From NCBI GenBank assembly GCA_004293445.1, contig RDYP01000004.1:62001-126000 (forward strand): 64,000 bases of DNA. The letters run 5' to 3'. Shown here piece by piece: positions 8,494 to 53,117 of this stretch; the stretch's first letter is position 1; the number at the start of each line of letters is the position of its first letter. A model generated the notes under the pieces. That model was not told the DNA's origin. It saw only the letters and a list, made by a program, of their open reading frames with translations, and made no database searches. The DNA comes from Verrucomicrobiota bacterium. Lineage in GTDB: Bacteria; Verrucomicrobiota; Verrucomicrobiia; Verrucomicrobiales; Akkermansiaceae. A program made the translations under genes and the position numbers.

Positions 8494-9462
8494 CTATTTG
8501 GCCTTCGGCAGCGTTACGATCACAAGCCCCTCTTTCCGCTCAATCTTCAGCTGGGCGGCATCGACCGGCCCGGGGAGATCGATGATCTGAACAAACTCCG
8601 ACTTTCTCCGCCAGACCTGCCCCTCGCCGTTTCGCTCGCTGCTATCCTCGGAGGCGGCCACGATTCTCAACCGCCCATTCTCCACCATCACCTTGGCATT
8701 TTCTGCATTCCGCTCCGGCAAATAAGCGCGGACCACGTAGCTCCCGGCCTCCTCTTTCAAATCGACCGCCGCCCCGAAACGAGCCCGATCGAAGAATTCA
8801 CTCGGTCCCGGGAGATCATCCCATTCTTCAAAAGCCTGCTCGCACATCCGATCCATCTCCCGCCGCATCTGCTCCATCCGACCGAGAACCAAGCGATCCC
8901 ATGGCTCCCCCACCCGTCCACCCGACGATGGCGGGGCGCTTGCCTCCTTCGGTGACGACTCCACCACCCCCGCCGCCTTGGGCAAGTCGACCACGATCAC
9001 ATGCGTCTCCGCCCGCCGCCGAACCAAGGGCTTCGCATCGGGCGCGATGCCTTCCAGCACGATCTTCTGCTCATAACTCGCAAGCTTTCCCTCAGCGGGC
9101 GCGGTGATCCGTAAGGTCTTTCCTTCCTCGAAGACGACCTCCACCTTCCCGACATCGCGCCCCGGCATGTGCGCCCTGAGCGTGTAGCCATCATGGCGCT
9201 CTCTCAAATCCACGGACGCGATCGCCAGCGAATCCACCGCAGCCGCCTTGCCCGCGACCGACTCGCGAAGCTCGTGCCACTGCTCATGGAAACGGCGGGT
9301 CATCCGGTCATGCAAATCCCGCGATTTCTCGGCAATGCGCAGCCGTCGATCCTCCGTTTCATCCGCGACCGCGACTTGGAGAACTCCGACCAGCAGGAGC
9401 CAAACCGCCACGACGACGTGACTCATCCGAACGACATTCATGACGATGATGGACGTTTTCAT
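8494..9462 (-). CDS. Exported protein with two alpha-crystallin (Hsp20) domains
   Basis: The 322-residue protein has an N-terminal hydrophobic signal (WLLLVGVLQVAVA, cleavage likely near residue 33), then a charged helix, then two Hsp20-like domains at about 82-162 and 229-320. Each begins with a DLRE/DLKE strand followed by YTLRAHMPG or YVVRAYLPE and ends with a VDLPK or VTLPK strand. A linker rich in Met and Arg (RMEQMRREMDRMCEQAFEEW) separates them. Hsp20 proteins hold unfolded clients without ATP. Ordinary members are cytoplasmic, have one such domain and no signal peptide, so a periplasmic holdase is the inferred role. No chaperone partner is adjacent. Confidence 0.82.
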   Translation of the reverse strand: MKTSIIVMNVVRMSHVVVAVWLLLVGVLQVAVADETEDRRLRIAEKSRDLHDRMTRRFHEQWHELRESVAGKAAAVDSLAIASVDLRERHDGYTLRAHMPGRDVGKVEVVFEEGKTLRITAPAEGKLASYEQKIVLEGIAPDAKPLVRRRAETHVIVVDLPKAAGVVESSPKEASAPPSSGGRVGEPWDRLVLGRMEQMRREMDRMCEQAFEEWDDLPGPSEFFDRARFGAAVDLKEEAGSYVVRAYLPERNAENAKVMVENGRLRIVAASEDSSERNGEGQVWRRKSEFVQIIDLPGPVDAAQLKIERKEGLVIVTLPKAK

Positions 9463-9786: not shown

Positions 9787-10989
9787 TTGAAGATCCTGAT
9801 CCACGACTACGCCGGCCATGCTTTCCCCACCTCGCTCAGCCGCGCGCTGGCGGCGCGGGGGCACGACGTCGTCCACGCCTACGCCAGTTGCTTGCAAACG
9901 CCGCGCGGCGACCTCCAGCACCGCCCGGGCGATGCGGAAAACTTGGAATTCCATGAATTCCCGATGGATCCGAATTACCCGCGCTTCAAATACGCCTTTC
10001 GCCGCCGCCGCGGCATGGAAATTCGCTATGGCTCCGTGGCGGCCGACTTCATCCGCCAGTGGAGGCCCGATGCAGTCCTCTCCGGCAACACCCCCACCGA
10101 ACCGCAAGAGGCGATCAGTCGCGCAACGACCGAAAGCGGTGGCCGCTTCTACTTCTGGGTCCAGGACTTCTACAGTCTCGCTGTCGACAAACTGCTTCGG
10201 AAAAAGCTCCCGATCGCCGGAGGCTTCATCGGCGCCTGGTATCGCCTGCTGGACTCCCGTCAATTTCAGAGAAGCAGCGGCATCATCGCCATCAGCGAGG
10301 ACTTTACCGACACCCTGAGCCACGAGTTCGGCGTGGACGCGACACGGGTCTCCGTCATCCCCAACTGGGCGGTGATCGAAAAACTTCCCACCCTGCCGAA
10401 AGACAACGAATGGGCGCGGCAACACGCGCTGCACGACAAATTCGTCTTCCTGTACTCCGGCACCCTCGGCATGAAGCACAACCCGGCCTTGCTGCTGGAG
10501 CTCGCCAAGCACTTCCGCGACCACTCCTCCATCGAGGTGGTCGTCGTTTCCGAAGGCATCGGTGCCGACTGGCTGCGCCGCGAAGCCGCCACCGCAGGAC
10601 TGCGGCAACTGCGAGTCCTCCCCTACCAAGCCTTCAGCCAATTTCCAGCCGTGCTCGCATCCGGCGACGTCCTGATCGGCATTCTGGAAGAGGATGCCGC
10701 CACCTTCTCAGTGCCCTCGAAGACCCTCAGTTATCTCTGCGCCGCCCGCCCCTTGCTGCTCGCCGTGCCCGAGCAAAACCTCGCCGCCCGCATCACCCGC
10801 TCGCAAGCTGCGGGCATCACCGTGAGCCCGAATGATCTGCCGTCCTTTCTAGCAGCTGCCGAGCGACTTCACGCGTCCCCGGCGGAATGCTCCGCACACG
10901 CCGCCAGGGCTCGGGCCTATGCGGAGGCACACTTCCCCATCGAGCACATCGCCGCGGCTTTCGAGAACATACTCGTCGGCCAGCACTGA
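9787..10989 (+). CDS. Glycosyltransferase family 4-like (WcaI-like)
   Basis: The 400-residue cytoplasmic GT-B enzyme starts with MKILIHDYAGHAFPTSLSRALAARG, the N-terminal Rossmann strand and loop of GT4 enzymes. A mid-protein VSVIPNWAVIEK linker is followed by the C-terminal domain with FVFLYSGTLGMKHNP and the donor-site region FSVPSKTLSYLCAARPLL. The start codon is TTG, as no ATG precedes the conserved strand. It is the first of four genes that look like a surface-polysaccharide operon. The donor sugar and acceptor cannot be deduced. Confidence 0.88.
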   Translation: MKILIHDYAGHAFPTSLSRALAARGHDVVHAYASCLQTPRGDLQHRPGDAENLEFHEFPMDPNYPRFKYAFRRRRGMEIRYGSVAADFIRQWRPDAVLSGNTPTEPQEAISRATTESGGRFYFWVQDFYSLAVDKLLRKKLPIAGGFIGAWYRLLDSRQFQRSSGIIAISEDFTDTLSHEFGVDATRVSVIPNWAVIEKLPTLPKDNEWARQHALHDKFVFLYSGTLGMKHNPALLLELAKHFRDHSSIEVVVVSEGIGADWLRREAATAGLRQLRVLPYQAFSQFPAVLASGDVLIGILEEDAATFSVPSKTLSYLCAARPLLLAVPEQNLAARITRSQAAGITVSPNDLPSFLAAAERLHASPAECSAHAARARAYAEAHFPIEHIAAAFENILVGQH

Positions 10990-11015
10990 TCGACAGCCTC
11001 CCGCACCCGCTCGCC

Positions 11016-12194
11016 ATGCGCTGCCTCTGGATCACCCGCCAAGACCCTCGCCCCGCGGACAGCGGCGAGCTGATCTACTCACTCGGCCTGATCCGATCTC
11101 TCGCCGCACAGCCGGGCATCGAGCTCACCGTGCTCGCCCACCACGCGACAAAATCCTGCGAAGACGAATCCGCGGTGACCTGGCAGTTCCACGGTCACAT
11201 CCCCGAGGGCAGACTGCGAAGTCTCACGTCACCCCTGCCGGCCGATGCCTTCCGACTCGGCAATCGCCATCAACGAGAAGCCCTCGGCCGGCTGCTGACT
11301 CGCAGCTGGGACTGGATCATCATCGACCAAGCCGCCTGCGCCTGGGCCCTGCCTTTCATCCCGCCAAAGACGCTCCTCGCCTACATTGCCCACAACCACG
11401 AAGCCACGCTGCGCCACGAAGTGGCCCGGAACGAGCGCGGCCCGATGCCCCTGAAGCTCGCGCTCCGCTGGGACGCCCGGAAATACAGCAGACTGGAGCG
11501 GCGCCTCTGCAAGCGGGCTGATCTCGTCACCGCAATCACTCCGCACGATGCCGACACTTTTCGCAGCGAGCTCGCCGACCAACCTGTCCTGACACTCCTC
11601 CCGGGCTTCGAGGGGCGCATCCCGGCAAAAGCCCCACGCCAATTCACCGTGGACAGCCCCCGCGTCGTCGTCCTCGCCGGCGCCTTCGAGTGGCTTGCCA
11701 AACGGCGGAATCTCGAACGTTTCCTCCACGCGGCCCGCCGCCCGTTCCAAGAGGGCGGCATCCGCTTTCAAGTGATCGGCAAGGCCGACCCCGAGTGGTT
11801 CCAATCGCTGGCTCGGCAACACCCATGGGCCGATTTCAAATCAAACGTTCCCGCGATCGACCCCTATCTCGGCCAAGCCCGCATCGGCCTGATCCCCGAA
11901 GCCCTCGGCGGCGGCTTCAAACTCAAGGCCCTCGATTATATCTTCCGAGGTCTGCCCGTCGCTTCGATTGATAAGGCTCTGAGCGGCCTTCCCATCGATC
12001 CTTTCTCGGAAGCAATCACCGCCTCCGACCCCGAGTCACTCGCTTCCAAGGTGGTGTCGCGGATCGATGACCTGCGATTCCTCAACCACGCGGCGCACAG
12101 CGCCCTCGCCGCCTGCCGCCAGGCATTCCACTGGAAAGACCGCGGACCGGCACTCGCTGCCGCCTTGAAAAACCCCCACCCTCACCGCTCATGA
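11016..12194 (+). CDS. Glycosyltransferase, GT4-like
   Basis: The protein of 392 residues starts at MRCLWITRQDPRPADSGELI, with the acceptor-side loop PADSGE typical of GT4 members. The C-terminal half holds RVVVLAGAFEWLAKRRNLE and the donor region GGGFKLKALDYIFRGLPVA, in which GFKLK replaces the usual G-x-x-x-K/E-x-x-E. It begins 26 nt after the first glycosyltransferase and overlaps the next gene by 4 nt (ATGA). It probably adds a sugar to a lipid-linked or capsular glycan; specificity unknown. Confidence 0.85.
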   Translation: MRCLWITRQDPRPADSGELIYSLGLIRSLAAQPGIELTVLAHHATKSCEDESAVTWQFHGHIPEGRLRSLTSPLPADAFRLGNRHQREALGRLLTRSWDWIIIDQAACAWALPFIPPKTLLAYIAHNHEATLRHEVARNERGPMPLKLALRWDARKYSRLERRLCKRADLVTAITPHDADTFRSELADQPVLTLLPGFEGRIPAKAPRQFTVDSPRVVVLAGAFEWLAKRRNLERFLHAARRPFQEGGIRFQVIGKADPEWFQSLARQHPWADFKSNVPAIDPYLGQARIGLIPEALGGGFKLKALDYIFRGLPVASIDKALSGLPIDPFSEAITASDPESLASKVVSRIDDLRFLNHAAHSALAACRQAFHWKDRGPALAAALKNPHPHRS

Positions 12195-13561
12195 CCGCGC
12201 GGCTCGATCGCTTCCCGCTCGACGCCGGGTCCGTCGCACCATGGATCGAACGCCTCCTCTGGGTCTTCATGCTCTCCTTCGCGTTCGATTACCGCGCGTC
12301 CGAAGCCCGTGAAGCCGGTGCTGGCGCAGGGATCGACCAGTTGCTCTTCCTCTCCCTGTCCGCCCTTTCCACCGGCGGCATTCTCTTTCTGGGCTGGCGT
12401 TACCTACTGGTCCGCCCCGGAGCGTGGCTCATCATCGGCTGGTCCACGTTCCTCGCCTTCATGGCCGCAAATGCAGCGCTGCAAAATGTCCCCGCGGCGC
12501 GCTCCCTGCGCATCATACTGCCCCTCGTCCTCTGCCTCGCCGGCATCGTCAACACCCACGTCGCCGCCTGCACGGGACTACGCCCGGCAAAAATCATCGC
12601 CCCAGTCCTCACCGCGGCATGCGTCAATGTCACTTGGCGCATCTTTCACGGCTTCGTGTTCAAAGACGTGACGCTCGAAACCGCCCGCGTCGAAGTCCAA
12701 AGTTCCGCCAACAACTGGATCGCAGCCTGGGTCGGCGCCTCCCTGCTGCTGCGCCGCCGCTTTCACAGCAGCCTCGCCATCGCCGCCACGGTGCTCTTCA
12801 TCGGCATCTTTGTCACCATCACCCGCTCGCTTCTTTTCCCTCTCACCGCATCCGCCGTGGCCGCAGGACTCTGCTTCTTCCTCGGCGCGCGCTGGGGCTT
12901 ATTCCGGATCTCCGATGCGTTTCGAAAACCCGGCCCGATCGCCACCTTGGTCGTGATCGCCGCCCTCGGTATCGGCATCACCACCCTCGCCGAACCCATG
13001 TTGCTGGAACGCTGGACCGAACGGCTCTTCCACCACGCGGCGGACCGCAATACCAAGCACGATATCTCCCTGCTGACGCGGATCGCCGAAGCCGACGCGA
13101 TTTTCGAAATCCTTCAACGGGAGCCCGTCCGCTTCCTCCACGGCATGGGCATCGGTGCCAGCTTCTATTGGCACCCCTCCTACATGCCGGAAATCCTGCT
13201 CGTCTTCCCTCCCAATGAAGGTGTCGGCGAAGAACTTTGGTTCGCAGGCCACTCGACCTGGACCTACGCCCTCTTCTCCGGCGGAATCATCGCACTCGTC
13301 GCCTACCTCGCCCTGCTGACAGGCACCATGGCGAACGCCCTCCTCTCCGCCCGGGCAAACGCCTCCGCCCCCGGCCCCGATCAGTGGCTGGCCTTCCTGC
13401 CCTTCATCGCCGCCTGCTGCCTCCTCAGCGAAACACTGACCTCCAATCCTTTCGACGAAAGACTCGCATCGATGATCTTCGGCGTGATGGCAGGACTCCC
13501 CCAAGCCTTCATCGTCCGGGCATCCTGGATCCACGCCAGCACAAGCACCCCGACGGCATGA
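12191..13561 (+). CDS. O-antigen polymerase/ligase-like membrane protein
   Basis: The 456-residue protein has ten or more membrane segments and one large periplasmic loop (about 260-360) containing RNTKHDISLLTRIAEADAIF and HGMGIGASFYWHP, followed by GHSTWTYALFSGG. This topology fits Wzy polymerases or WaaL ligases of the O-antigen ligase superfamily; the two cannot be told apart here. It is linked to both neighbours by ATGA overlaps, so it is translated with the glycosyltransferases and presumably polymerises or transfers their product. Confidence 0.8.
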   Translation: MTARLDRFPLDAGSVAPWIERLLWVFMLSFAFDYRASEAREAGAGAGIDQLLFLSLSALSTGGILFLGWRYLLVRPGAWLIIGWSTFLAFMAANAALQNVPAARSLRIILPLVLCLAGIVNTHVAACTGLRPAKIIAPVLTAACVNVTWRIFHGFVFKDVTLETARVEVQSSANNWIAAWVGASLLLRRRFHSSLAIAATVLFIGIFVTITRSLLFPLTASAVAAGLCFFLGARWGLFRISDAFRKPGPIATLVVIAALGIGITTLAEPMLLERWTERLFHHAADRNTKHDISLLTRIAEADAIFEILQREPVRFLHGMGIGASFYWHPSYMPEILLVFPPNEGVGEELWFAGHSTWTYALFSGGIIALVAYLALLTGTMANALLSARANASAPGPDQWLAFLPFIAACCLLSETLTSNPFDERLASMIFGVMAGLPQAFIVRASWIHASTSTPTA

Positions 13562-14811
13562 CCCGCGACCTTTCCGGAAAAACCATCGCACTGGCCGACC
13601 CCCTCTGGGTCGGACATCATCCGATGTATTTTTCTGAATTCGTCGCCGCCTTCCTGCGACTCGGAGCCTTCGTCATCGGCCTCTGCCCGGACCCCTCCGA
13701 AGCCATGCGGACAAGCCTCGAAAAAAACCCGTTCCCCGACATTCACAAACGATGCTCGATGCACCACCTCCCGACCGGCACGCGCAGTTGGTTCGGTGGC
13801 CGCTTCGAAGGCGACCCCCTCAGAACGTTCCAACGCTGGCAACGGGTCGCCAGCGCGCTTCGCCAAGCCGAACAAAAAAGCGGGCACCGCGCGGATCTGG
13901 TCTTCTTTCCCTATCTCGACAGTTACCTTCGCTTCCTTCCCTTCCCCAGCGTCCCTCGAATCACCCTCAACCGGCCCTGGAGCGGACTCTATCTGCGAAA
14001 CCACCACCACGGTTCCCCGGCATCGACCAAGTCCTACCTGCGCCGATTGGCCAAGGGCGACGCTCTGATCCGCAGCCGACTTTGCCGCGGGATCGGCGTG
14101 CTCGACGAACGCTTCATCGGTCCGATGGAACAGTACACCGGTCGCGCGGTGCGGGGCTTCCCCGACATCACCGATGCCGCCCTTCCCGACCGCGCCTCCC
14201 CCCTCGCCGAAGCGATTCGCGATAAAGCCGCCGGCCGTAAGATCATCGGCCTCATCGGACTCGAACGACGAAAGGGCCTCCTGAACTTGTTCCGGGTCGC
14301 GAAACTCGCCCGCGAAGCGCAACTCCCTTGGTATTTCGCCTGCGCCGGTCGCTTCGATCCCGCCGAATACAGCACGAAGGAACGAGCGGAACTCGACCGG
14401 ATCGCACGCCATGCCGCGAGCGGGGAAATCGACAACGTTCACTTCGACCCGAGCGCTGGCCGCATTCCAGCCGAGGTGGACTTCAATTCGGTCTTCCGCA
14501 CCTTCGACGTGGCCTGGGCCGCCTACGAGGGCTTCGAAGGCAGCAGCGGTACCCTCGGCAAGGCCGCCGCCTTCGATATCCCCTGCCTCGCCAGCCGCGG
14601 CGAATGCATCGGCCAGCGAATCGAGAGCTACCGCACGGGATTGACGATTCCCCAGGGCAACAGCAGCGAAGCCCTTGAAGCGATCCAACGCATCCTCGCC
14701 CATCGCGATTGGAACGATCGACCCCTGATCGGCGACTACGAACGCTTCCGCAGAGACCACGGCCAAGCGCGACTCGACGCGGTGCTTCTCGAGCTCCTCG
14801 GCAGGGTTTGA
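13558..14811 (+). CDS. Glycosyltransferase-like protein of the polysaccharide operon
   Basis: The 417-residue protein begins at MTRDLSGKTIALADPLWVGHHPMYF, where HHPMY recalls N-terminal acceptor loops of GT-B enzymes. The C-terminal half has KIIGLIGLERRKGLLNLFRV and a donor-like region YEGFEGSSGTLGKAAAFDIP, both consistent with glycosyltransferase family 1/4 folds. An in-frame extension to 13237 would overlap the polymerase gene and is rejected. It closes the operon. Family assignment is weaker than for the other two transferases. Confidence 0.75.
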   Translation: MTRDLSGKTIALADPLWVGHHPMYFSEFVAAFLRLGAFVIGLCPDPSEAMRTSLEKNPFPDIHKRCSMHHLPTGTRSWFGGRFEGDPLRTFQRWQRVASALRQAEQKSGHRADLVFFPYLDSYLRFLPFPSVPRITLNRPWSGLYLRNHHHGSPASTKSYLRRLAKGDALIRSRLCRGIGVLDERFIGPMEQYTGRAVRGFPDITDAALPDRASPLAEAIRDKAAGRKIIGLIGLERRKGLLNLFRVAKLAREAQLPWYFACAGRFDPAEYSTKERAELDRIARHAASGEIDNVHFDPSAGRIPAEVDFNSVFRTFDVAWAAYEGFEGSSGTLGKAAAFDIPCLASRGECIGQRIESYRTGLTIPQGNSSEALEAIQRILAHRDWNDRPLIGDYERFRRDHGQARLDAVLLELLGRV

Positions 14812-28056: not shown

Positions 28057-30750
28057 ATGCACCGCCATCTCCCCCATCTTGCCCATCGACTGATCATCGC
28101 GGGACTGGCAGCGGGCATCACCGCTCAGGCCGATTTGGAGGACGCCCTCAATCGGAACGATTTCAAAGCCGCGGAGGCTGAACTGGAACCCCTCGCCGCC
28201 AGTTGGCAGGAAGCTTGGAAAAACTCTGGCAAGAAATCCGACGGCATCGAATACGGCCTCACGCTCCAAGCACTCGGCATCGTCGAACGCCAAGGCGGCA
28301 AAGCAGACGAAGCCCTGCCTCATCTGGCGAAGGCATCTGAACTGCTCGCCAACTCCGACCCGACCCAGCAGGCGGACGCGCTCGAAGCACTCGCCCTGAC
28401 CCTTCAGGATCTCGGCCAGCTCGAAGAAGCGGAACCGCACCTGCGAAAAGTGGTCCAACTCCGCGAAGCGATCCCCGATCCCGAACCGGCGCTGAGCCAA
28501 AGCCGCGACCACCTCGCGCTGCTCCTCCTCGCGCGCGGTTCCTATCCCGAGGCAGGCACGATCCTGCTCGCGAATCTTGAGAACACCCCGCCCAGAGACC
28601 CCCGGGCGCAGGCCCGTCGTCGCTCGCATCTCGGCCGCTACCACCACACCCTCGGCAGCCATGCCCGCGCCGCCGAACTCTTTCGCGAAGCCATCGCACT
28701 GCCATTCGACGACCCGGAATTGTCGCTGGCCCTCACCAGCCAACTCGCCCTCGCCGAACTGCGCCTTGGCAGGACCGAGACCGCGCGCAGCGGATTGGAA
28801 AAGGCCGCCGAACTCGCACGCAAACGCTTTCGCCACGACCGCCGCCCCTTTCTTGCCGCTCCCCACCTGATCAATCTCGGTGCCCTCGACCTCTCGCTCG
28901 GCCGCCCCGCGGAAGCCCGCTCCGCTTTCGCCGAAGCACTGGCACTGCTGGAATCCTCCCTGCCCGCCGAACACCCGGCATTGATCGTCCCCCTCAACAA
29001 CCTCGGCTGCGCGGAACAAAACATCGGTAACTTCACCCAAGCCGCCGAACACCTCCGCCGCGCCGCCGAACTGCAAAAAAAACACCTTCCCCAAGTCCAC
29101 CTTCGCACCGCGGAAACCGCGCGCAACCTGGCACGCAACGCCCTGCTGTCGGGAGACCCATCCGCCGGTTCCGAAATCGATCGCGCCACCCAACTCGGCC
29201 TCGAACTTCTCGGCAAACTGGTCCACCACGGCAGCGAACCCGAGCGACTGAATTTCATCCAGCGCCTCGATCTGATCTCCCTGCCCTGCGCCATTGGCGA
29301 TGCCGGACAAATCGCCAACCTGCTCATCGCCAGCAAAGCGCGCTTGCTCGATGCCATGCTGCAATCTCAGCAGGAGCCGGGCGACCCGCCCCCCAACTGG
29401 CAGGCCGTCCAGCAAAGCCTGCCGCCCGGCTCCGCCTTCATCGATGCTTGCCGCTTCACACGCATCGGACCCGACCCGCAAGTCAGCTACGGAGCCATCA
29501 TCCTCCTGCCCACAGGAACGCCGAAATGGATCACCCTCGGTGATGAAGCGGACCTGCAGAGATGGCTCAAAGCCCTCCGCCAACGCCTTGCCTGGCGAGC
29601 ACGCAAAATCGCTGGCGATGCATCCCCGCCGCCACCCCTCAAGCTCCGCGGCATCCTTCGCAGCTTGCATCGCGACTTCTGGGAACCCCTCGCCCGCGAA
29701 CTCCCGCCGGAAACCCAAGACCTCGCATTCTCGCCCGACGGCGCCCTGCATTTCCTCCCCCTCGCCAGCCTGCTCGATTCCAACCTGCGCCCCTTAGCCG
29801 CGGGATATCGACAGGTCGCTACGGTCGCCAGCGGGCGCGATCTGCTCAATCGCCCGAGCGAACTCAGCCTGTCGCAGCACCCTTGGACCCTCTTGGGCGT
29901 CGCAGATTTTCCAAAAAGCCGGCAACCCACCGGCGACGATCCCCTGCTGACCCTGCTTGCCGCGCTTGAACCCATGCCCGGCGTCCGCGAGGAAACCCGG
30001 ACGCTCCATGCACTCGCCCCGGCAGGCTCGCGATTGTTCGAAGACGCCGCCGCCAGTGAATCCACACTGGGCAGCATCGAGCCCGCACCTGCGGTGCTCC
30101 ACCTCGGCTGCCACGCCTTCTTTTTGAACGCGACCGACAGCCCGGATCGCACCGTGGACTTCGACGAGCAATCCAGCCTGCTCCACGCAGGCGGCCTGGC
30201 CCTGCATCGAGCCGCCCTGCGCGATGCAGACAGCCCCTTGTTGGCTGCCGATGACGACCTGCTGTTCCCCGCCGAAATCGCGCGACTCCCTCTTCAGGGA
30301 ACCCGCTTGGTCACTCTGTCATCTTGCGAATCCGGTGCCGGCACCGCCGTCTCCGGCGAAGGGCTGCTGGGCCTACGCCGCGGTTTCGCTCTGGCCGGCG
30401 CACGCGAAGTGGCGGTCGCCTTGTGGCCGGTATCCGATCGCTCGACCCCCGCTTTCATGGAGCGCTTCTACCGCCTCGCCCTTGCCTCGGACCGACCCGC
30501 ACAAGCCCTCTGGCAATGCCAGCGAGAATTCCTCGGCAGCGCTCACGACGAAGATGCCTTCGAAGAGGCAGTCCTCCGCTACGGGCCCTTCCTGCTGAGC
30601 CAAAACACGCCGCTCGCTGCGAGTGGGGCCACCATCATCCCCCCGGACCGGGACCAGACCCTTCCGTGGACCGCCCTGATCCTCTCGTTACCCGTGGCGG
30701 CCTTCCTCATCGCCCGCCTCACCCGGCCAGGAAAGCCGTCGCCAGCCTGA
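28057..30750 (+). CDS. TPR-CHAT domain protein (putative caspase-like protease)
   Basis: The 897-residue protein has a signal-like N-terminus (HRLIIAGLAAGITAQA), about ten TPR-like helical repeats (residues about 30-400) and a C-terminal CHAT domain. The CHAT catalytic pair is visible: His686 in LHLGCHAFF and Cys757 in LSSCESGAG, followed by GEGLLGLRRGFALAGA. A hydrophobic segment near the end (TLPWTALILSLPVAAFLIARL) could anchor it. CHAT proteins are caspase-like peptidases; similar TPR-CHAT proteins often occur with secretion genes. Its end is 2 bp from the convergent TPS-like gene. The localisation is an inference from the N- and C-terminal segments. Confidence 0.85.
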   Translation: MHRHLPHLAHRLIIAGLAAGITAQADLEDALNRNDFKAAEAELEPLAASWQEAWKNSGKKSDGIEYGLTLQALGIVERQGGKADEALPHLAKASELLANSDPTQQADALEALALTLQDLGQLEEAEPHLRKVVQLREAIPDPEPALSQSRDHLALLLLARGSYPEAGTILLANLENTPPRDPRAQARRRSHLGRYHHTLGSHARAAELFREAIALPFDDPELSLALTSQLALAELRLGRTETARSGLEKAAELARKRFRHDRRPFLAAPHLINLGALDLSLGRPAEARSAFAEALALLESSLPAEHPALIVPLNNLGCAEQNIGNFTQAAEHLRRAAELQKKHLPQVHLRTAETARNLARNALLSGDPSAGSEIDRATQLGLELLGKLVHHGSEPERLNFIQRLDLISLPCAIGDAGQIANLLIASKARLLDAMLQSQQEPGDPPPNWQAVQQSLPPGSAFIDACRFTRIGPDPQVSYGAIILLPTGTPKWITLGDEADLQRWLKALRQRLAWRARKIAGDASPPPPLKLRGILRSLHRDFWEPLARELPPETQDLAFSPDGALHFLPLASLLDSNLRPLAAGYRQVATVASGRDLLNRPSELSLSQHPWTLLGVADFPKSRQPTGDDPLLTLLAALEPMPGVREETRTLHALAPAGSRLFEDAAASESTLGSIEPAPAVLHLGCHAFFLNATDSPDRTVDFDEQSSLLHAGGLALHRAALRDADSPLLAADDDLLFPAEIARLPLQGTRLVTLSSCESGAGTAVSGEGLLGLRRGFALAGAREVAVALWPVSDRSTPAFMERFYRLALASDRPAQALWQCQREFLGSAHDEDAFEEAVLRYGPFLLSQNTPLAASGATIIPPDRDQTLPWTALILSLPVAAFLIARLTRPGKPSPA

Positions 30751-30752
30751 CA

Positions 30753-31871
30753 TCAGCGCTTGCCCACCTGACTGCCGCCGCGCATTCCGAAAAACGACGC
30801 ACGGAGGAACATCGGTTTCTCCGGCTTGTCACGCGCCACCAAGCGCGCCTCAGGAAGGATCGCATCACGACCACTTTCCGCCGTCGCAGACATCGGAACT
30901 TCATGGACCACAGTCCGCTCCGTGCTGACCGCCGACCCATCAGGGCGCTTCAGAGCGGGGATCTTCAAAGTGGACGAACCCACGGCAGCAGCCGCATCCC
31001 CCTCATTCGGATCAAGCCCTAGGCCCCCGTCCTCATATTCCCCATTCATCACGACCCGACCCACCGTCAGCCCGTTGCCTTCGCGCAGGATTTTGCCATC
31101 GCTGCCGACCTCGAGGAAAATCCGATTTTCCGGTGAACCCGCGTCGAAGCTCCCGCGATGAGCGATCTCGCGCCCCGCCGCCACTTCGATGCGACTGGCC
31201 CGGGAATCCGCTAGGTGCAGCACGAAACCGCTGCCGCTTCGCTCTTCCATGCCACGGTCAGCCGCCCCGGGATGAATCGCCACATCGGTACTGCCCGCCA
31301 TTTTCAGCGTTCCACTCGCATCGATCTTCGCCGATCCCGATACGTCCGTGAAGCGACTCGCCAGCACCACGTCGCCGGCATCCGCCACGACCTGACCGGA
31401 TACGGCGAGACCGTTCCACCCGCCGGGATCGACACTCATCGTGTAGGAATCTCCCGCCACGAAGGCAGCGGCATCGACATCCATCGCTGCCAGCGTCACC
31501 GACTTGGCCGTAATACTGCCGTCCACCACCAGATCCGCGGACGGGGAGAAAAATCCAACCGCCCCATTCGAGCTGACCGTTCCACTGATGAAATTCACCC
31601 CGCTGCCACCCAAAATGTTGGCCACGCTTTCGCCACCCAAAAAGTCGAACACCAGTTCACTGCCAGTCGCCAAATCGAAGCTTTCCCAGTCGAGCACGGT
31701 ATTGCCCGTAATGGTGAAAACCGTCCGATTCCCCGTCGCTGTCGCCTCCGTCGCCCAAGTCGCGGTGCCGGGGGTCGATAACACGGGAAACCCGAGCTCC
31801 TGGGAAAAGCCAGAGCCGACGAGAAGACATACCGGTAAGATCCGGCCGAGGGGGAACAGCAGGTGATTCAT
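30753..31871 (-). CDS. Secreted TPS-domain (filamentous haemagglutinin N-terminus-like) protein
   Basis: The 372-residue protein has a signal peptide (ILPVCLLVGSGFSQ) and a two-partner-secretion-type domain (about 30-160): FTITGNTVLDWESFDLATGSE, then SVANILGGSGVNFISGTVSSNG and a FSPSADLVVDGSI stretch, which follow the haemagglutination-activity pattern (W-x-S-F, N-R-V/I-x-G, G-x-x-S-N-G). The tail is short compared with adhesins of over 1000 residues, and rich in Asp/Gly then basic at the very end (RGGSQVGKR). No TpsB transporter is in the window. It converges with the CHAT gene and diverges from the sigma-like gene. Confidence 0.78.
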   Translation of the reverse strand: MNHLLFPLGRILPVCLLVGSGFSQELGFPVLSTPGTATWATEATATGNRTVFTITGNTVLDWESFDLATGSELVFDFLGGESVANILGGSGVNFISGTVSSNGAVGFFSPSADLVVDGSITAKSVTLAAMDVDAAAFVAGDSYTMSVDPGGWNGLAVSGQVVADAGDVVLASRFTDVSGSAKIDASGTLKMAGSTDVAIHPGAADRGMEERSGSGFVLHLADSRASRIEVAAGREIAHRGSFDAGSPENRIFLEVGSDGKILREGNGLTVGRVVMNGEYEDGGLGLDPNEGDAAAAVGSSTLKIPALKRPDGSAVSTERTVVHEVPMSATAESGRDAILPEARLVARDKPEKPMFLRASFFGMRGGSQVGKR

Positions 31872-31994
31872 ATCGAGGCGCTCGGTGGGACGAGGTAACC
31901 GCTCGTTACTTTTTTAAAATAAACAGAGCTTAGAAGCTTGCAAAGCAATCTTTTTTAGTTTTTCGTCTTATCCAGCTCACCGAAGCTCTCACGC
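31872..31994. promoter_or_regulatory. AT-rich divergent promoter region
   Basis: The 123 bp between the divergent TPS-like and sigma-like genes are strikingly AT-rich for this genome, with TTTTTTAAAATAAA and TTTTTTAGTTTTT runs and a small inverted repeat AGCTTAGAAGCT. Divergent promoters, possibly regulated together, are the simplest reading; no defined operator can be named. Confidence 0.5.
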
Positions 31995-32915
31995 ATGCCC
32001 CCCACCGATCACCAGAAGCATCTGGACCAATGCTGGTCCGCCTGCTGGCACCGCGCCCGGCGCCCCGTCGAGGGCGTCCTCGTGCCCGAGGAGCGGGCGA
32101 TCGAAATCGCCGAGCAGGTCATGCGGAACATCGCGCTCGATTTCGCCGAGCTCCCCGCCGAGGCGGAATTCACGGCTCGGGTCATTCAAGAAACGGGCGA
32201 AGCAACTCGGGACCTCGTCGCCGCGGAACGCCGCAAAAAAGCCGATCCCCAGCTCCATCACGACCCCGAGGACCGACGCTATCCGCAAAACCTCGACCTC
32301 GACCGCCTGCAAAAGGCTCACCCCGCGCGCGGCTTCCACGATCCCGAGTGGAATCGCTTGCCCGATGTCCTCCGCCCCCTTGCCATCGCCACCCTGACCC
32401 GCAAGGGCATCAAGGGAGCCGATGCCGAAGATGTCTTCAGCGACAGCTTGGTCGAACTGGTTCGCGACCGGGAAAGCACCCGCCCCGCCCCCATTCTGTC
32501 ACCCACCGTCTTCGAAGAACTCATCCCCCTCCACGCGAGGATCGTGCAATACCGAGCCATCGATTGGTTCCGCCGCCGCAGCGCTTTGAAGAACCAGCCG
32601 AATTCCGGAGAAAGCTTCGACGCCCTCACCGGCGACCCCGACCGCCCCCTGCAGATCGAGGACCAAGCAGCCAGCCGAATGAGCTTCGAAAGCATCTATC
32701 AGGAATGCCGCGAAGCCCTCACCACCAACGAGTGGCAATTGATTTACTCTCTCTACGTCGCCCAAACCGCAACCGTCCAAGACCTCGTGCGTGACGCTGA
32801 CTTCTGCACCGCACTCGGCATCAAGAAAGGAGCCTCCAGCTCGACCCGCCGTCGAGTGATCGGCGAAATGGTCGAGGATGCCTTGGAGAAAATCAGGGAA
32901 AATTTACTATTTTGA
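31995..32915 (+). CDS. Sigma-70-like (ECF-type) regulator, divergent
   Basis: The 306-residue protein resembles a divergent sigma factor: a region-2-like segment with DAEDVFSDSLVELVRD followed by RIVQYRAIDWFRRRSA, as in ECF region 2.2-2.4, and a C-terminal helical part (TNEWQLIYSLYVAQTATVQDL, then SSSTRRRVIGEMVEDALEKI) resembling region 4. The N-terminus of about 120 residues is unusual for ECF factors. No Shine-Dalgarno is visible. The next gene encodes a single-span membrane protein. A role in controlling the TPS/CHAT block is inferred from position only. Confidence 0.65.
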   Translation: MPPTDHQKHLDQCWSACWHRARRPVEGVLVPEERAIEIAEQVMRNIALDFAELPAEAEFTARVIQETGEATRDLVAAERRKKADPQLHHDPEDRRYPQNLDLDRLQKAHPARGFHDPEWNRLPDVLRPLAIATLTRKGIKGADAEDVFSDSLVELVRDRESTRPAPILSPTVFEELIPLHARIVQYRAIDWFRRRSALKNQPNSGESFDALTGDPDRPLQIEDQAASRMSFESIYQECREALTTNEWQLIYSLYVAQTATVQDLVRDADFCTALGIKKGASSSTRRRVIGEMVEDALEKIRENLLF

Positions 32916-32953
32916 AAATCGGATAGCCAAGTTCCGATTGAAACCGTGTCGCC

Positions 32954-33544
32954 ATGCCACTCGAACTTCCCGAACGCCTTCACGCCACCCGCGATCTCCT
33001 GATGCGGAGCCTGATCCCCACGCACGCCGAGCAAGCACCCGAGATGCCGACGAGCCTCGCTCTCGATCTAACGGATCGCTTCGCCCCCCGCCGCCCCACG
33101 GCCCCGGACACCCGCTCCCTTTCCTGGCTTCAAAAAGCCCGCCACTTCCTCGCCACACCTACCTTCGGCGCTGTCGCCGCGGCAATCGCCCTGCTCGGAG
33201 CCGCCCTGCCGCTACTCCAAAATCACGCCGCCCTGTCCGGCGAAAGCCTGCGCGGTAGCCATGGTGCCCTTGCGCACGAAGCCATCCCGATCCTCTTCGT
33301 CGGCCAGCACCCGGACGTCCTCCAGACCGTGCTCGATTCCGGCCTTTTCGAGGCCTCGAACCTTTCGTCGGCCTCTTCCCTCGCCGAAGCCGAAGCGCGA
33401 CCCGGTGCCAAAGTCATCGTCGACCTGTCCACCTCGACCATCACCGCGATCACCAAGGAAAACGCCACCGTCCAACGTGTGGCTGTTCCGACATCGCCGG
33501 ATAATCTCGCCGACGCCATCGCCTTCGCGGTCTCGAGCCTCTGA
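32954..33544 (+). CDS. Single-span membrane protein, possible anti-sigma partner
   Basis: The 196-residue protein has a soluble N-terminus, one membrane segment (residues about 69-89, TPTFGAVAAAIALLGAALPLL), and a periplasmic C-terminal domain with IPILFVGQHPDVLQTVLDSG and RPGAKVIVDLSTSTITAITK strands. I do not recognise a family. It begins 38 nt after the sigma-like gene, an arrangement typical of sigma/anti-sigma pairs, but no known anti-sigma motif (such as HxxxCxxC) is present, so the role is only a guess. Confidence 0.6.
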   Translation: MPLELPERLHATRDLLMRSLIPTHAEQAPEMPTSLALDLTDRFAPRRPTAPDTRSLSWLQKARHFLATPTFGAVAAAIALLGAALPLLQNHAALSGESLRGSHGALAHEAIPILFVGQHPDVLQTVLDSGLFEASNLSSASSLAEAEARPGAKVIVDLSTSTITAITKENATVQRVAVPTSPDNLADAIAFAVSSL

Positions 33545-33677: not shown

Positions 33678-34511
33678 ATGCCCCGCCTCGCCCTCCTCCA
33701 ATCCCGCGCCTTCCCAAGCAAGGCCGAAGCCTTCGAACACCACGAACTCCTGATCCGCCAAGCCGCCAAGGACGGCGCCCAGATCGTGGTGACCCAGGAG
33801 CTCTTCCTCACTCCCTATTTCTGCACCATCGAAGACCCCAATCTCTTCGATCTCGCCGACCCCCTCCCCGGCCCGGTCACCGACCGCCTCGGCCAACTCG
33901 CCCGCGAACTCGGGATCGTGCTGATTTCCTCGCTCTTCGAGCAGCGCGGTGCCGGACTCTACCACAACACCGCCAGCATCCACGACGCCGATGGCTTCCT
34001 GCTGGGGCTCTACCGCAAGAGCCACATCCCACAGGACCCCGCCTTCGAGGAAAAATTCTACTTCACCCCCGGTGACACCGGCTGGCCCGTCTGGAATACC
34101 CGCTTCGGAAAAATCGGCGTGCTGATCTGCTGGGACCAGTGGTACCCCGAGGCCGCCCGCCTGATGGCTCTCGGCGGCGCACAGCTCATCGTTTACCCGA
34201 CCGCCATCGGCTGGTTGCCCGAGGAAAAACCGACACTCGGCGATGCCCAGCACTGCGCCTGGGAGACGGTCCAGCGCGGCCACGCGGTCGCCAACGGCTG
34301 CTACCTCGCCGCCGTCAATCGCGTCGGCACCGAAGGCAACACCGAGTTCTGGGGCCGCTCCTTTGTAGCGAACCCCTACGGCGAACTCGTCGCCAAGGCC
34401 TCGACCGAGCGGGAGGAAATCCTCTACCACGATCTCGACCTCGGCGCCGTCGAAGACTTCCGCCGTATCTGGCCCTTCTTCCGCGACCGCCGCATCGACG
34501 CCTACGGAGAC

Positions 34512-34535
<24 letters not shown>
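33678..34535 (+). CDS. aguB: N-carbamoylputrescine amidase
   Basis: The 285-residue nitrilase-family enzyme hydrolyses N-carbamoylputrescine to putrescine. The Glu-Lys-Cys triad is visible: Glu41 in [12 protein letters not shown], Lys114 in [10 protein letters not shown] and Cys151 in [14 protein letters not shown]. The motif [12 protein letters not shown] and the signature [17 protein letters not shown] are as in AguB. Length fits. Agmatine deiminase (aguA) is not in the window. The upstream in-frame extension to 33261 covers the preceding gene and is rejected. Its 3' end overlaps convergent clpB by 24 bp. Confidence 0.92.
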
Positions 34536-48511: not shown

Positions 48512-49222
48512 ATGATCCCATCCATCCAAGCCTTGTTGGTGCTTCAGGACCGCGACCGCCGCCTGCGCGTCCTCGCTGACGACCTCGCAAAAATCCCCAA
48601 AGACGAGGCCCGCGCTGGAGATCGTCTGGCCGGAGACACCCGGGCCGTGCAAGTCGCGAAGGACGCGATGATGGCGAACGAGATCGAAATCAAAAAGGTG
48701 GAGATGGACACCGCCACCCGGCGCACCACCATCCAACGACTCAAAACCCAGCAGTTCGAAACTCGGAAAAACGATGAGTTCCAGGCTCTGGGCCACGAAA
48801 TCACGCGCTACGAAAAAGACATCGACGGCCTCGAAACCCGTGAACTCGAACTCATGGAGAAAGCCGACGATCTGCGCGGCACTCTCCAACGTGCAGAAGC
48901 CGCGCTGGCCCAGACCCGGAAGCTCGTCGATGAGGACCTCGCCAATTTGGCCCAACGCAAACAACGCCTCGAGGCCGATACTCTCGAAGTCCAAGCCGAA
49001 CGAAATCAGCTCGCCGCCGCTGCACCGGCATCGATGCTCCCTCTCTACGAGCGCCTCTTGAAAACCAAGAACGGCCTCGCCGTGGTCCCGGTCACCGCGG
49101 GCAAATGCACCGGCTGCCACATGAAGCTGGTCGCCTCCACCCTCGTGAAGGTGCACTCGCAGGTCGAAGGAACCCAGTGCGAAAGCTGCGGCCGCCTCGT
49201 CTACGACGGCGACGCGTCTTAA
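48512..49222 (+). CDS. Coiled-coil zinc-ribbon protein (C4 type)
   Basis: The 236-residue cytoplasmic protein is mostly alpha-helical coiled coil (about 20-170), and ends with a zinc ribbon CTGCHMKL...CESCGRLVY. It matches the bacterial C4-type zf-RING_7 family (CT398-like); its function is not established. It lies 42 nt after the tricorn-like gene. Its stop overlaps the end of the convergent pseudopilin-cluster gene by 4 bp. Confidence 0.85.
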   Translation: MIPSIQALLVLQDRDRRLRVLADDLAKIPKDEARAGDRLAGDTRAVQVAKDAMMANEIEIKKVEMDTATRRTTIQRLKTQQFETRKNDEFQALGHEITRYEKDIDGLETRELELMEKADDLRGTLQRAEAALAQTRKLVDEDLANLAQRKQRLEADTLEVQAERNQLAAAAPASMLPLYERLLKTKNGLAVVPVTAGKCTGCHMKLVASTLVKVHSQVEGTQCESCGRLVYDGDAS

Positions 49223-51402
49223 TTCGATCCCGTCGCCGTGTAGAAGCCCTTCCGCCGTTCCTCAACCGTTACCAACCAGTTCATCATCGTCACCGGCGGC
49301 AACTGGGCCGGATGAGTGATCGGCTGCAGGTTGACGTTGATCTTCGACGCCTCCGCCGCTTCCTCGCTGCCCATTTTCACGTCCAACAGATGGACAGGCT
49401 GCCCATCCGCCGCTTCCTCTCCTCCCAGGTGGCCGATCTGGCCGGAAATACGGACTCGAAACGGATCATACTCCGTTCCGTAGCGCTTCTCTGGAGCGAA
49501 TAAGGATGCCGGAGGATAGAAGGGCGAGGCCAAGCCAGAACCCGCCGGCGGGGTGGTGGCGACGATATTGAAATCGTCACCGATGTAGAGCCGCAGATTG
49601 GTCACCAGTGAGAAGCCCTTGCTGAAGGCTCGCAAATCATCGCACTCCGATAGCAACAAGCCATAGTCGTTTTCGGTGGCGGGAATCGCAGGTTTGTAAG
49701 CCGGATTGTTCAATCCACTGGTAGAATAATCCACGTTCACCACCAAGGAGTGATTGACCTCCGTCCCATCCGCCCCGATCGCAGCAAGAAAGCCCGGCAG
49801 ACGTTCGGGATACACCGCGATCGAAAGCTTGGATTCGTGCAGCAGCTTCACTTCGAAGGGCAGCGAAGGACGGAAATAGCCCTCCTTGGGTTTGCCGGGA
49901 TTGGGATCGCCAAAGGTCTGACTGTTGAAAGTGACGGTTCCAGTCACACCGGATTGATAATGAAACAGCCCCTCGGAACCGTAAGCGACGTCGTTGAGGC
50001 CTTCGAAAACATGGCTCTCATTTTCAGCCGCGATCCGGACATAGCCGAACGGCAAACCATCGGGACCATTGCCCAACGAAAGTTCCAAGGACTCCCGCAC
50101 TCCCCCTTTGAAATACTGAAAACGCAGGGCGGTCGGCGTGGGATCGGTCGAACTGGCCACCTCCGTGACATCCAGCCGCATGGCACACTGCAACGCGCCA
50201 ACCGAATAGCTGTTCCAAGTGGTGCTCGATAGCACGTCAGTCTCGGGCGCGTGAGCGAAACGATCAAAAAACGCCTTCCCTCGATTGATCGGAAAGAAGG
50301 CGGCGCGCCCCGATTCCGACGCCATGGTCACCGGCAAGAAATCGCCATGTGTGGCTTCGAAACGCTCGCGGACCCCCGGCTCGAATGGATCTCCTCCCAG
50401 ATCTCGATCGCCCACGGTGACCTGATTGCCAAGCGTCAGGCCCCGGCGGCCGGAGAGCCGCTCGATGTGCATGCCACCATCCACCTCGGCGCGCGTGGAA
50501 TAAACACCGCCCTCGATGCTGACATTCTGCCACGGCGTCCCGTCCGCATGCATCCCGAGCTTGGTGAATGCCTCGGCGGAAATCGCGAGCTGCGAGGGAA
50601 TCTCATAGATCGACACCACGAAATCCCGCTCGTTGGAACTCCCTCCTTCGCGCCCGAAGCTGCCAAGCAAGCTCTCATGTTCACCGAGCTGCATGCTGAA
50701 AGCCCACCAGTTGCGCTTGGCGACAAAGGGTTGACCCGGGGCCGCATATCCAAAGCGAATTTCTGGATAGGGAATCACATTGAACCCGGAATACTTCGTC
50801 ACCGGAAGACCAACTCCAGCCGCAGCCAGTTCCCCGAAGATTTTATCGCGGCTGATGATGGGATACACCCGGTCACGCGCCGCAACGGTATCATTCGCCG
50901 TTTGCAGAGGGACAGGAAAGCCCGTCCCGAGCGAACGATTGATCCCCGGCGCGACAAAACCCGACTCCGGCTCGATCGCATCGAACATGAGTCCGATGGA
51001 CCCCAGAGCGGCATCGCCACTGTTTCCCACCACCGCGCTTTCGCCATCGACCGATTCCAGCAAAGGCCGCGAAATCGACCTGCGGGCATTCGCCTGATCC
51101 AGAGCGTCGGAGAAAATCTGCTCCCACGTCAAAGCCCTGCGAGTAGAGGAGTTGGCATTGGAAAGATGCTGCATCGAGCGAATCGCGCGGTTCGGCACGA
51201 GATTCACCAGCGCCCGCAGCACCGCATCTTCTTTATCCGCGTAGTCAGCCCGCAATTGCGCTTCGGACTGAACCTCCTGAGACAGAACCGCCTGTCGATA
51301 GGCGCTCATCGTCAGCATCGTCAGCATCAAGCCGGTCGACAGGACGATGATGTATGAGACATAGCCGGGGCGCATTCGCCGCCGACGTCCGGGAGATTTC
51401 AT
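49219..51402 (-). CDS. Large membrane-anchored protein of the pseudopilin cluster
   Basis: The 727-residue protein has a basic start (KSPGRRRRMRPGYVSYI), one membrane segment (IIVLSTGLMLTMLTMSAY) and a long extracytoplasmic region with no recognised domain, containing beta-rich and Asn/Gly/Thr-rich parts. It resembles the PilX/large 'A'-type component found beside prepilins in verrucomicrobial cassettes (for example Verru_Chthon cassettes), an inference from order and topology. It overlaps the upstream prepilin gene by 4 nt (ATGA) and is the last gene of the cluster. No prepilin Glu5 signature follows the hydrophobic start, so it may not be processed. Confidence 0.7.
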   Translation of the reverse strand: MKSPGRRRRMRPGYVSYIIVLSTGLMLTMLTMSAYRQAVLSQEVQSEAQLRADYADKEDAVLRALVNLVPNRAIRSMQHLSNANSSTRRALTWEQIFSDALDQANARRSISRPLLESVDGESAVVGNSGDAALGSIGLMFDAIEPESGFVAPGINRSLGTGFPVPLQTANDTVAARDRVYPIISRDKIFGELAAAGVGLPVTKYSGFNVIPYPEIRFGYAAPGQPFVAKRNWWAFSMQLGEHESLLGSFGREGGSSNERDFVVSIYEIPSQLAISAEAFTKLGMHADGTPWQNVSIEGGVYSTRAEVDGGMHIERLSGRRGLTLGNQVTVGDRDLGGDPFEPGVRERFEATHGDFLPVTMASESGRAAFFPINRGKAFFDRFAHAPETDVLSSTTWNSYSVGALQCAMRLDVTEVASSTDPTPTALRFQYFKGGVRESLELSLGNGPDGLPFGYVRIAAENESHVFEGLNDVAYGSEGLFHYQSGVTGTVTFNSQTFGDPNPGKPKEGYFRPSLPFEVKLLHESKLSIAVYPERLPGFLAAIGADGTEVNHSLVVNVDYSTSGLNNPAYKPAIPATENDYGLLLSECDDLRAFSKGFSLVTNLRLYIGDDFNIVATTPPAGSGLASPFYPPASLFAPEKRYGTEYDPFRVRISGQIGHLGGEEAADGQPVHLLDVKMGSEEAAEASKINVNLQPITHPAQLPPVTMMNWLVTVEERRKGFYTATGSN

Positions 51403-51929
51403 AACTGCTGGGTTCCTGAATAAAAAATTTCCTCACCGTTCGGCCCGGTGATCCTCGCGCGGAGAATGCCTTGTTCAACGGCGAACCTGACGTTCGCCGG
51501 CTTTGTGGTCAATGACCAGTCGGCGGATCCGAGCACCCCCTCCCGATTCACCATCCGATAGTAAAGCCCCCGACCACTTCCCGGATCCTCGAAGGAAAGA
51601 ACCGATGCGCGGAAAGTACCATCGGGTTCTTTGAACCTCAGCAAAACAACCGGAGCGTCTTCAAACACCGGGGCATCGCCCGCAACAAGATCCTCAACGC
51701 TCCGATAGAGCCGATAGCCCTCGGCCGAACCGATCACGCGAGTCAGGTAATTATTGATCACCGGAACCTCCGTCGTCAGGAAGCTCTGGGCATTGAGGAT
51801 ACGTAAAAAAGCGATCTGCTGATTTACCAAGGCCAACAACATGACGGCCAAGACCATACCGGTGGCCATCGCGAGACTGAGCTCGACCAGCGTGTACCCG
51901 CGGCGGGAAATTGAGCGGGGCGATTTCAT
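51399..51929 (-). CDS. Type IV prepilin-like (pseudopilin) protein
   Basis: The 176-residue protein has a class III prepilin leader: basic KSPRSISRRG, cleavage before YTLVELSLA with Glu5, and a hydrophobic helix (MVLAVMLLALVNQQIAF). The C-terminal domain is beta-rich and has no cysteine pair. It may form part of a pseudopilus. It overlaps the downstream large gene (ATGA) and the upstream pseudopilin gene (4 nt), making a tightly coupled trio. No pilin ATPase, PilC or prepilin peptidase gene is in the window, so these must be elsewhere. Confidence 0.85.
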   Translation of the reverse strand: MKSPRSISRRGYTLVELSLAMATGMVLAVMLLALVNQQIAFLRILNAQSFLTTEVPVINNYLTRVIGSAEGYRLYRSVEDLVAGDAPVFEDAPVVLLRFKEPDGTFRASVLSFEDPGSGRGLYYRMVNREGVLGSADWSLTTKPANVRFAVEQGILRARITGPNGEEIFYSGTQQL

Positions 51930-52579
51930 TGCGATCGAACCACGGTTCGGGATTTGAGATAATCACGCCCACCCAACGAATAGCGGATGACGCTCTGGAA
52001 ACGCCAAACTTCCATCGAGGCCGGATTGATCAACGCCGTGCCGTTGCCCCCCTTCGATGGGAGATTATTGGCATCGGCGAATCGCGTTCGGGTCACCGTC
52101 CCGCTGATCGGAAGCCCGCCGGGCAGTTTGCCAAACTCGACCGTGCTCGTCGCCAACTCCGGATAAGCCGGCCACAAGGACTGCTCCGAGGTCAGATCCG
52201 CGAAGGGCAGCCGCTGGGCGCTCGCTTTTTCAAAGGTCAGATAGGCATCGGTCACCGCTTGCTGCAAGGCCCACTGCCGGGGCGCGATCACGTTGAGCGA
52301 AAGCTTCAGCAGGATCAGCCCCAACACGCTCAAGATGGTCATCGCAATGGTGACCTCCAACAAAACCGAACCGCGGCGCCGGCCTACGGGCTTGTCGGAA
52401 CAGCGGGAAAAGCGGAGGCTCCCCCCATGCGCAACCGCCTCAGCAGCCTGGCCGCCGTCGTCATCGGCCTCTGGTTGGCAGGAAGCGCCATCGCCGGAGC
52501 ACAGGCCGTGCTCGCGCCACCCTTCGGACTGCGCTGGGGCGACACTCCGGAAAAGCTGATTGTTTGGGCTTCCCGACAT
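51926..52579 (-). CDS. Second pseudopilin, start uncertain
   Basis: The recognisable protein is GSVLLEVTIAMTILSVLGLI, preceded by RRR, a prepilin-type motif with Glu5-like glutamate, followed by a soluble domain ending KSRTVVRSQ. The only ATG/GTG/TTG in frame is at 52579, giving a 70-residue leader that overlaps the opposite-strand gene starting at 52427. Such a long leader is rare for prepilins, so a non-standard start near the basic RRR or a sequencing error should be considered. The gene is the first of the three-gene unit with the prepilin and the large protein. Confidence 0.65.
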   Translation of the reverse strand: MSGSPNNQLFRSVAPAQSEGWREHGLCSGDGASCQPEADDDGGQAAEAVAHGGSLRFSRCSDKPVGRRRGSVLLEVTIAMTILSVLGLILLKLSLNVIAPRQWALQQAVTDAYLTFEKASAQRLPFADLTSEQSLWPAYPELATSTVEFGKLPGGLPISGTVTRTRFADANNLPSKGGNGTALINPASMEVWRFQSVIRYSLGGRDYLKSRTVVRSQ

Positions 52580-53053
52580 TCGTTAGATGTAAGTATTTCC
52601 CTGCCTGGGGATCAACCGGACCTGCGCATCATCCGCATCGCACCGCGCGAGGGCAAGTTGCCAGGCTCCGCCGCCCAGGCCTTGGAAGGGCGTTTCCACA
52701 GAGGCAGGCTTTTCGAAGTCGCAATTCATTACCGCGAGCCCGACACGGCGGCCGACACGATGGAGGCTCGTTTCAACAAATTGAAAAAGGAACTGGCTGC
52801 CGAATACGGTCCGCTTTCCGCCAACCAACAAGAGCGCAGCGTCGTGAACGGCTTCGCAACTCGCACCGCGTCGTTCCATCGCGAACCGGTCAAAGGGCTC
52901 TTGCTCCTGCTTGCCTACAGCGAGGTCCACGACCAACTCCGCCAAACCCGCGAAGCCACCTTTTCCCTCCTCTATCGCAATGACAACTTGAGGCGGAACC
53001 TCGACAACGCCGCAGGCTCCGACGGACGAGAGACCGGCGGAGAGCAGAAGTAA
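52427..53053 (+). CDS. Secreted protein of unknown function inside the pseudopilin region
   Basis: The 208-residue protein has a clear signal peptide (MRNRLSSLAAVVIGLWLAGS then AIAGAQA) and a mixed mature part (FGLRWGDTPEKLIVWASRHS, a pattern seen in other exported proteins) with no recognised domain. It is on the opposite strand to its neighbours and overlaps the start region of the second pseudopilin by about 150 bp if that gene begins at 52579. The stop lies 64 nt from the convergent gene's stop. No function can be assigned. Confidence 0.7.
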   Translation: MRNRLSSLAAVVIGLWLAGSAIAGAQAVLAPPFGLRWGDTPEKLIVWASRHSLDVSISLPGDQPDLRIIRIAPREGKLPGSAAQALEGRFHRGRLFEVAIHYREPDTAADTMEARFNKLKKELAAEYGPLSANQQERSVVNGFATRTASFHREPVKGLLLLLAYSEVHDQLRQTREATFSLLYRNDNLRRNLDNAAGSDGRETGGEQK

Positions 53054-53117
53054 GGACAAACAGGGTTTCATGACCGCGATGGAATGAGGGGGGTTGATCG
53101 CAGGCGGTCGCCAGCAA

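Follow-up and report, generated by a model that had tools for sequence, protein, structure and literature searches.

We found strong evidence, from the comparison of sequences, that six genes form one inherited functional module, a unit that by protein class comprises a sigma factor, its membrane partner, a TPS protein, a TpsB exporter, a TPR-CHAT protein, and an S8 subtilase. Several families within a single bacterial order carry the module. Four of the genes lie together in the window (the whole 64,000-nucleotide stretch of DNA that was analysed), where the open reading frames were confirmed at the coordinates in Table 1 and a codon-usage gene call agreed on all four, ends included. The grouping of these genes at 28057-33544, described in an earlier note on this DNA, was thus borne out. 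So was the arrangement that it gave: the TPS gene converges on the CHAT gene with 2 bp between the stops (30750 is the last position of the CHAT stop and 30753 the first of the TPS stop), and the sigma-like gene, recognized by its fold matches, diverges from the TPS gene and is followed by a membrane protein with one span by hydropathy.

Table 1. Features of the module genes in the window (positions are those of the window).
Feature	Position	Strand	Basis
Exported TPR-CHAT cysteine-peptidase-like protein, 897 aa	28057..30750	+	PF12770 2e-52; TPR_12 7e-29
Apparent hydrophobic N-terminal export signal of CHAT, first ~24 residues	28057..28128	+	Read by eye
CHAT domain, residues 533-876	29653..30684	+	PF12770; invariant residues in 30 homologues
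C-terminal transmembrane anchor of CHAT, residues 867-889, basic residues after	30655..30723	+	Hydropathy
Small TPS-domain exported protein, TpsA-like, 372 aa, without long passenger	30753..31871	-	HxuA/EtpA profile matches
C-terminal TPS motif ASFFGMRGG	30774..30800	-	Conserved; [SA]FF core retained in other families
Conserved block CTTGCAAAGCNNTCTTTTTT, divergent TPS/sigma promoter region	31937..31956	+	Conserved within genus
ECF-like sigma factor, 306 aa	31995..32915	+	AF2 model and structural matches
Sigma domain 2, residues 97-202	32283..32600	+	SigW 5wur Z 10.1, rmsd 3.6 over 91
Sigma domain 4, residues 230-306	32682..32912	+	SigD domain 4, 3vfz Z 8.0, rmsd 1.8 over 62
Single-span membrane protein, probable anti-sigma factor, 196 aa	32954..33544	+	Family alignment, model, gene order
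Membrane span of partner protein, residues 65-90	33146..33223	+	Hydropathy, model; sole hydrophobic span
Invariant Arg100 in juxtamembrane RG motif, candidate cleavage/recognition site	33251..33256	+	Alignment
Periplasmic alpha/beta domain, residues 110-196	33281..33541	+	Confident model, block pLDDT 95-98

A carbon-nitrogen hydrolase gene (window 33678-34535) adjoins the module here and is a neighbour in many relatives too; an unrelated protein of ~310 aa, often located between the module and this hydrolase in relatives, is absent from the window. The window also carries a minus-strand gene run at 49219-55590, which includes a possible prepilin-like N-terminus; G+C content is lower there, and GC skew weaker, than elsewhere in the window.

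Neighbourhood gene maps showed that two more partners adjoin the CHAT gene in most relatives, an S8 subtilase (PF00082 in 29 of 29 members, with the catalytic triad retained) and a TpsB/ShlB exporter. Could this genome encode them away from the window? The search for a TpsB elsewhere in the genome, proposed in the earlier note, found one ShlB/TpsB (PF03865, E = 1.3e-12, at G000:C17), the only ShlB found in this genome, beside a module-type subtilase. The S8 and TpsB genes are a divergent pair on another contig (L167:5261-6646, minus strand, and 6949-8595, plus strand), away from the contig ends, and the S8 gene is usually divergent from the TpsB gene among the relatives as well. Because this genome contains exactly one CHAT match, one TPS-family match (the window protein), and one ShlB, the window TPS protein and the C17 TpsB are the only pairing available. 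The TpsA and TpsB genes, close together in many relatives, are on different contigs here; since adjacent TpsA and TpsB genes are not needed in every TPS system, the missing adjacency lowers the two-partner claim only slightly.

The evidence for a single module comes from co-occurrence, co-divergence, and contiguous six-gene blocks in varied orders. Among 195 Akkermansiaceae genomes (Haloferula, Luteolibacter, Roseibacillus, and relatives), the four window genes occurred in nearly the same 31-39 genomes and were jointly absent from about 155. The TPS and sigma genes were both present in 35 genomes, one without the other in 6, and neither in 154 (p = 1e-31); the corresponding counts were 34, 5, and 156 for CHAT and TPS (p = 4e-32) and 34, 7, and 154 for sigma and CHAT (p = 3e-30). 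Every pair of the four co-occurred at p <= 3e-21 (range about 1e-21 to 1e-32), and incomplete genomes and divergent members are among the few mismatches. Some genomes of the G8 type appear to keep the sigma, membrane protein, TpsB, S8, and CHAT genes without a recognizable TPS protein. The CHAT gene lies apart from the TPS and sigma genes in G101, G056, G039, and Roseibacillus, as the S8 and TpsB genes do in this genome. The scattering of homologues that would have counted against the earlier note was not seen across the 195 genomes: the four genes co-occurred there, even though their linkage is not constant.

Furthermore, the identity matrices of the six families correlated pairwise (r = 0.90-0.97, up to 351 pairs), paralogous cassettes included, in a set containing genomes with two or three divergent cassettes. 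In G048, much of the cassette is present three times in divergent form (L138, L139, and L140), and these copies are closer to those of other species than to one another.

When the search was widened to the order with the sigma profile, carriers were found in other families, and four of those examined have all six genes in one block with differing orders. In L231, the genes run SIG-TM-TpsB-S8-TPS-CHAT as a single operon, co-directional and with several overlapping gene ends, while L253 has the order SIG-TM-TpsB-S8-CHAT-TPS. L252 keeps the window layout, with CHAT convergent with TPS and TPS divergent from sigma, and has S8 and TpsB attached; L254 has all six genes in a fourth layout. Other carriers either are truncated where a contig ends or have only some of the six genes. 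A protein-kinase-like gene (L231:7784-9016) overlaps the start of the L231 operon, which suggests that the sigma factor receives a further input in that family. At a locus from another family of the class, another TPR-CHAT gene lies near a sigma gene that is followed by a possible single-span protein (L232:8049-9338 and 10908-13817); no module-type TPS or TpsB match was found at this locus, and it is perhaps a simpler pairing of CHAT and sigma.

The CHAT protein consists of an N-terminal export signal, TPR repeats, the CHAT domain, and a C-terminal membrane span. The export signal is an apparent one, judged from the sequence by eye and below the hydropathy threshold of 1.6 used for spans; the C-terminal anchor is present in most homologues and missing in those of the G8 type. 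Homologues over the CHAT part were found in 36 of the 195 genomes. H682, H686, C757, and D794 were invariant in 30 of 30 homologues aligned, down to 26% identity, so that the His686/Cys757 pair reported in the earlier note is intact in all of these and the broken dyad that would have counted against it was not seen. By its domain and His/Cys dyad, the protein is predicted to be a peptidase of the caspase-like class. We also considered an Arg-specific CHAT. The Asp of the separase Arg pocket, D2151, which we take to be the Arg-specific S1 residue of separase, is not conserved by position in the CHAT protein, and this specificity is therefore unsupported.

The window TPS protein alone gave no Pfam match. 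The profile of its 27-member family, on the other hand, matched the solved TPS domains of HxuA (4i84, 3e-17) and EtpA (8cpk, 6e-17), and two of the 27 members matched PF05860, in agreement with the earlier assignment of a TPS domain to this secreted protein. About 130 aa follow the TPS match, too few for the long beta-helical passenger, and an [SA]FF-containing basic tail ends 31 of 34 sequences under a loose pattern. Surface display by the TPS protein is possible, although the protein is just 372 aa long and lacks a long passenger. A linkage of CHAT and TPS on cyanobacterial plasmids was also considered; the best plasmid match had no annotated TPS or TpsB nearby in an incomplete gene table.

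The sigma region 2 Pfam match of the third gene fell under the curated cut-off (17.6 versus 24 bits). Its AlphaFold (AF2) model had a mean pLDDT of 86, and the 50 structural matches listed for it were all sigma factors or sigma complexes, among them sigma-E (6jbq, Z 10.1) and SigW (5wur, Z 10.1). On the predicted model, the sigma fold is thus well supported, and the structural comparison showed sigma domains 2 and 4 with domain 3 absent, as is typical of the ECF type. Residues 1-95 form an extra helical N-terminal domain, barely covered by the structural search.

Wherever a homologous locus extends far enough on that side, the gene of the membrane protein follows the sigma gene. Its model begins with two short cytoplasmic helices, and the flanking charges predict a topology with the N-terminus in and the C-terminus out. 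At a median of 12 residues past the span, an Arg is followed by Gly, Ser, or Asp in 37 of 40 members by script and in 3 by eye; the same kind of motif occurred in 21 of 167 control windows further along. Pfam and PDB sequence searches found no known anti-sigma domain in this protein, RseA- and zinc-type domains included, and the best fold matches of the periplasmic domain, the anticodon-binding domains of class II tRNA synthetases, were at an unspecific level (Z about 7.5). A single-span protein encoded beside a sigma factor typically holds it until proteolysis sets it free. From its position, alignment, and model, the protein is probably an anti-sigma factor.

We also searched the intergenic regions for shared signals. 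The block CTTGCAAAGCNNTCTTTTTT between the TPS and sigma genes has no second copy in this genome, the next-best sites carrying 3 mismatches, and it may simply be the promoter. TTTT[TG]AAAA was common between the S8 and TpsB genes and between the TPS and sigma genes (14 of 31 such regions versus 6 of 295 others), and base composition is the likely reason. The best common word of the two loci of this genome was reached in 88 of 200 shuffles; with no motif common to both loci above chance, their common control by this sigma factor is unsupported.

How might the six proteins work together? Directly supported here are the unity of the module, the classes of its proteins, their predicted topology, and the intact catalytic residues; we infer the steps of binding, cleavage, and control. 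In the resting cell, the short N-terminal helical region of the membrane protein would hold the sigma factor in the cytoplasm. An envelope signal would be received by the periplasmic alpha/beta domain and the juxtamembrane Arg-Gly site, where an exported protease, most plausibly the membrane-anchored CHAT, would cut near the RG motif and begin the release of the sigma factor. The free sigma factor might then transcribe the module genes, the divergent TPS gene probably among them. As the domain pairing strongly suggests, Sec and TpsB would carry the TPS protein to the cell surface, and S8, CHAT, or both might process it at its conserved SFF-containing tail. For this whole model, which combines protease-gated sigma release, TpsB export of the TPS protein, and processing and is computational throughout, we see the chances as evenly balanced. 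A more tentative extension, which we would put forward as speculation, is an envelope-spanning system in which the anchored periplasmic TPR-CHAT is the site-1 protease for the ECF anti-sigma factor and TPS/TpsB reports the state of the outer surface, such that TPS secretion gates sigma release.

As a second protease, S8, and the membrane protein beside the sigma factor are conserved too, there are at least two candidate proteases (CHAT and S8) and two candidate substrates (TPS and the membrane protein). Of the reading in the earlier note, an exported protease with its substrate, the conserved unit, the intact dyad, the TPS domain, and the TpsB stand, while the TPS protein is one candidate substrate of CHAT. 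It is possible, if somewhat doubtful, that the module serves secretion and maturation alone: TpsB would export the TPS protein, S8 and CHAT would mature or release it, and the sigma pair would do no more than set expression in answer to a separate signal, with the membrane protein left uncut by the proteases. The set of S8, TPS, and TpsB mirrors SphB1/FhaB/FhaC (PMC6070651), and the usual divergence of S8 from TpsB and the conserved C-terminal motif of the TPS protein fit such a role, whereas the membrane anchor on CHAT in most members argues against it, as do those G8-type genomes in which no TPS was detected alongside S8, CHAT, TpsB, and the sigma pair, so that the proteases would lack that substrate.

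Rather unlikely, in our judgement, is an exported counterpart of CASP/Craspase, in which the cutting of a sigma inhibitor by CHAT would be the whole purpose, with stress or attack outputs elsewhere and TPS/TpsB as the sensor. The cleavage of the sigma inhibitor Csx30 by a TPR-CHAT is established in type III-E CRISPR (PMC10028731), and a separate second TPR-CHAT lies beside a sigma/membrane-protein pair in L232; nevertheless, PDB and Pfam sequence searches, which can miss such a relationship, found no similarity to Csx30 in the membrane protein, and since CHAT is apparently exported, its activation must differ from RNA binding. That CHAT is a catalytically idle scaffold and S8 the sole active protease is quite improbable: active sites can persist for other reasons and the activity of CHAT is a prediction, but H686, C757, and D794 have been kept in all 30 homologues aligned, down to 26% identity. 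Finally, we consider it extremely improbable that the genes are accidental neighbours inherited jointly without a common function. The surroundings are similar at most loci within the genus, as such an accident would produce; across families, however, the same six genes occur in at least four orders yet together, their losses coincide, and the paralogous cassettes co-diverge.

If the protease-gated model is true, caspase-like CHAT peptidases act in the bacterial envelope besides the cytoplasm, and the protease-to-sigma logic of type III-E CRISPR also exists as stand-alone surface signalling. Two-partner secretion would have two proteases and a sigma pair of its own within a single cassette. 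The module spans a bacterial order poorly studied at the protein level, and each step is testable with purified parts. In the literature covered, which included few subscription papers, we found no description of the six-gene combination, and nothing on CHAT with two-partner secretion, with a subtilisin and a sigma factor, or with the periplasm. The novelty is therefore provisional, and we provisionally regard the module as known protein classes in an unreported combination, a protease-gated sigma system coupled to two-partner secretion.

In the RseA/DegS/sigma-E system, to which PMC10028731 also refers, a single-span inhibitor undergoes regulated proteolysis with a periplasmic first cut. The module likewise has a single-span candidate inhibitor with a periplasmic domain beside an ECF sigma factor, and the proposed first cut is periplasmic, but its candidate site-1 proteases are CHAT and S8 instead of DegS. 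In the CASP/Craspase system (Csx29, Csx30, and CASP-sigma), the TPR-CHAT Csx29 cleaves Csx30, an inhibitor of a sigma factor (PMC10028731). In both systems, a TPR-CHAT is linked genetically with a sigma factor of ECF-like type and with a candidate inhibitor whose proteolysis is the proposed switch; however, the CHAT of the module has an apparent export signal and an anchor, a membrane protein takes the place of candidate inhibitor there, and TPS, TpsB, and a subtilase belong to the set. No Cas family, Cas7-11 included, was among the family matches of the six window proteins scanned.

PUMA3 (VreA/VreI/VreR) of Pseudomonas aeruginosa, for which we drew on part of the published account (PMC2729926), is alike in that an ECF sigma factor with a membrane sigma regulator controls a two-partner secretion pair. 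It has the receptor-like VreA, and that part of the account names neither a CHAT nor a module-type subtilase; compared with the sigma factor described there, that of the module carries an extra N-terminal domain. In Bordetella, the subtilase SphB1 matures the TPS protein FHA (PMC6070651), and FhaB, FhaC, and SphB1 resemble the module in joining a TPS protein, a TpsB exporter, and an S8 protease in one functional set. FhaB is about 370 kDa, whereas the TPS protein of the module is far smaller, and the set in the module includes a CHAT peptidase and the sigma pair. The module thus unites parts of Csx29/Csx30, PUMA3, and SphB1/FHA, and it is from this union that we propose a mechanism in which protease-gated sigma release would be coupled to two-partner secretion.
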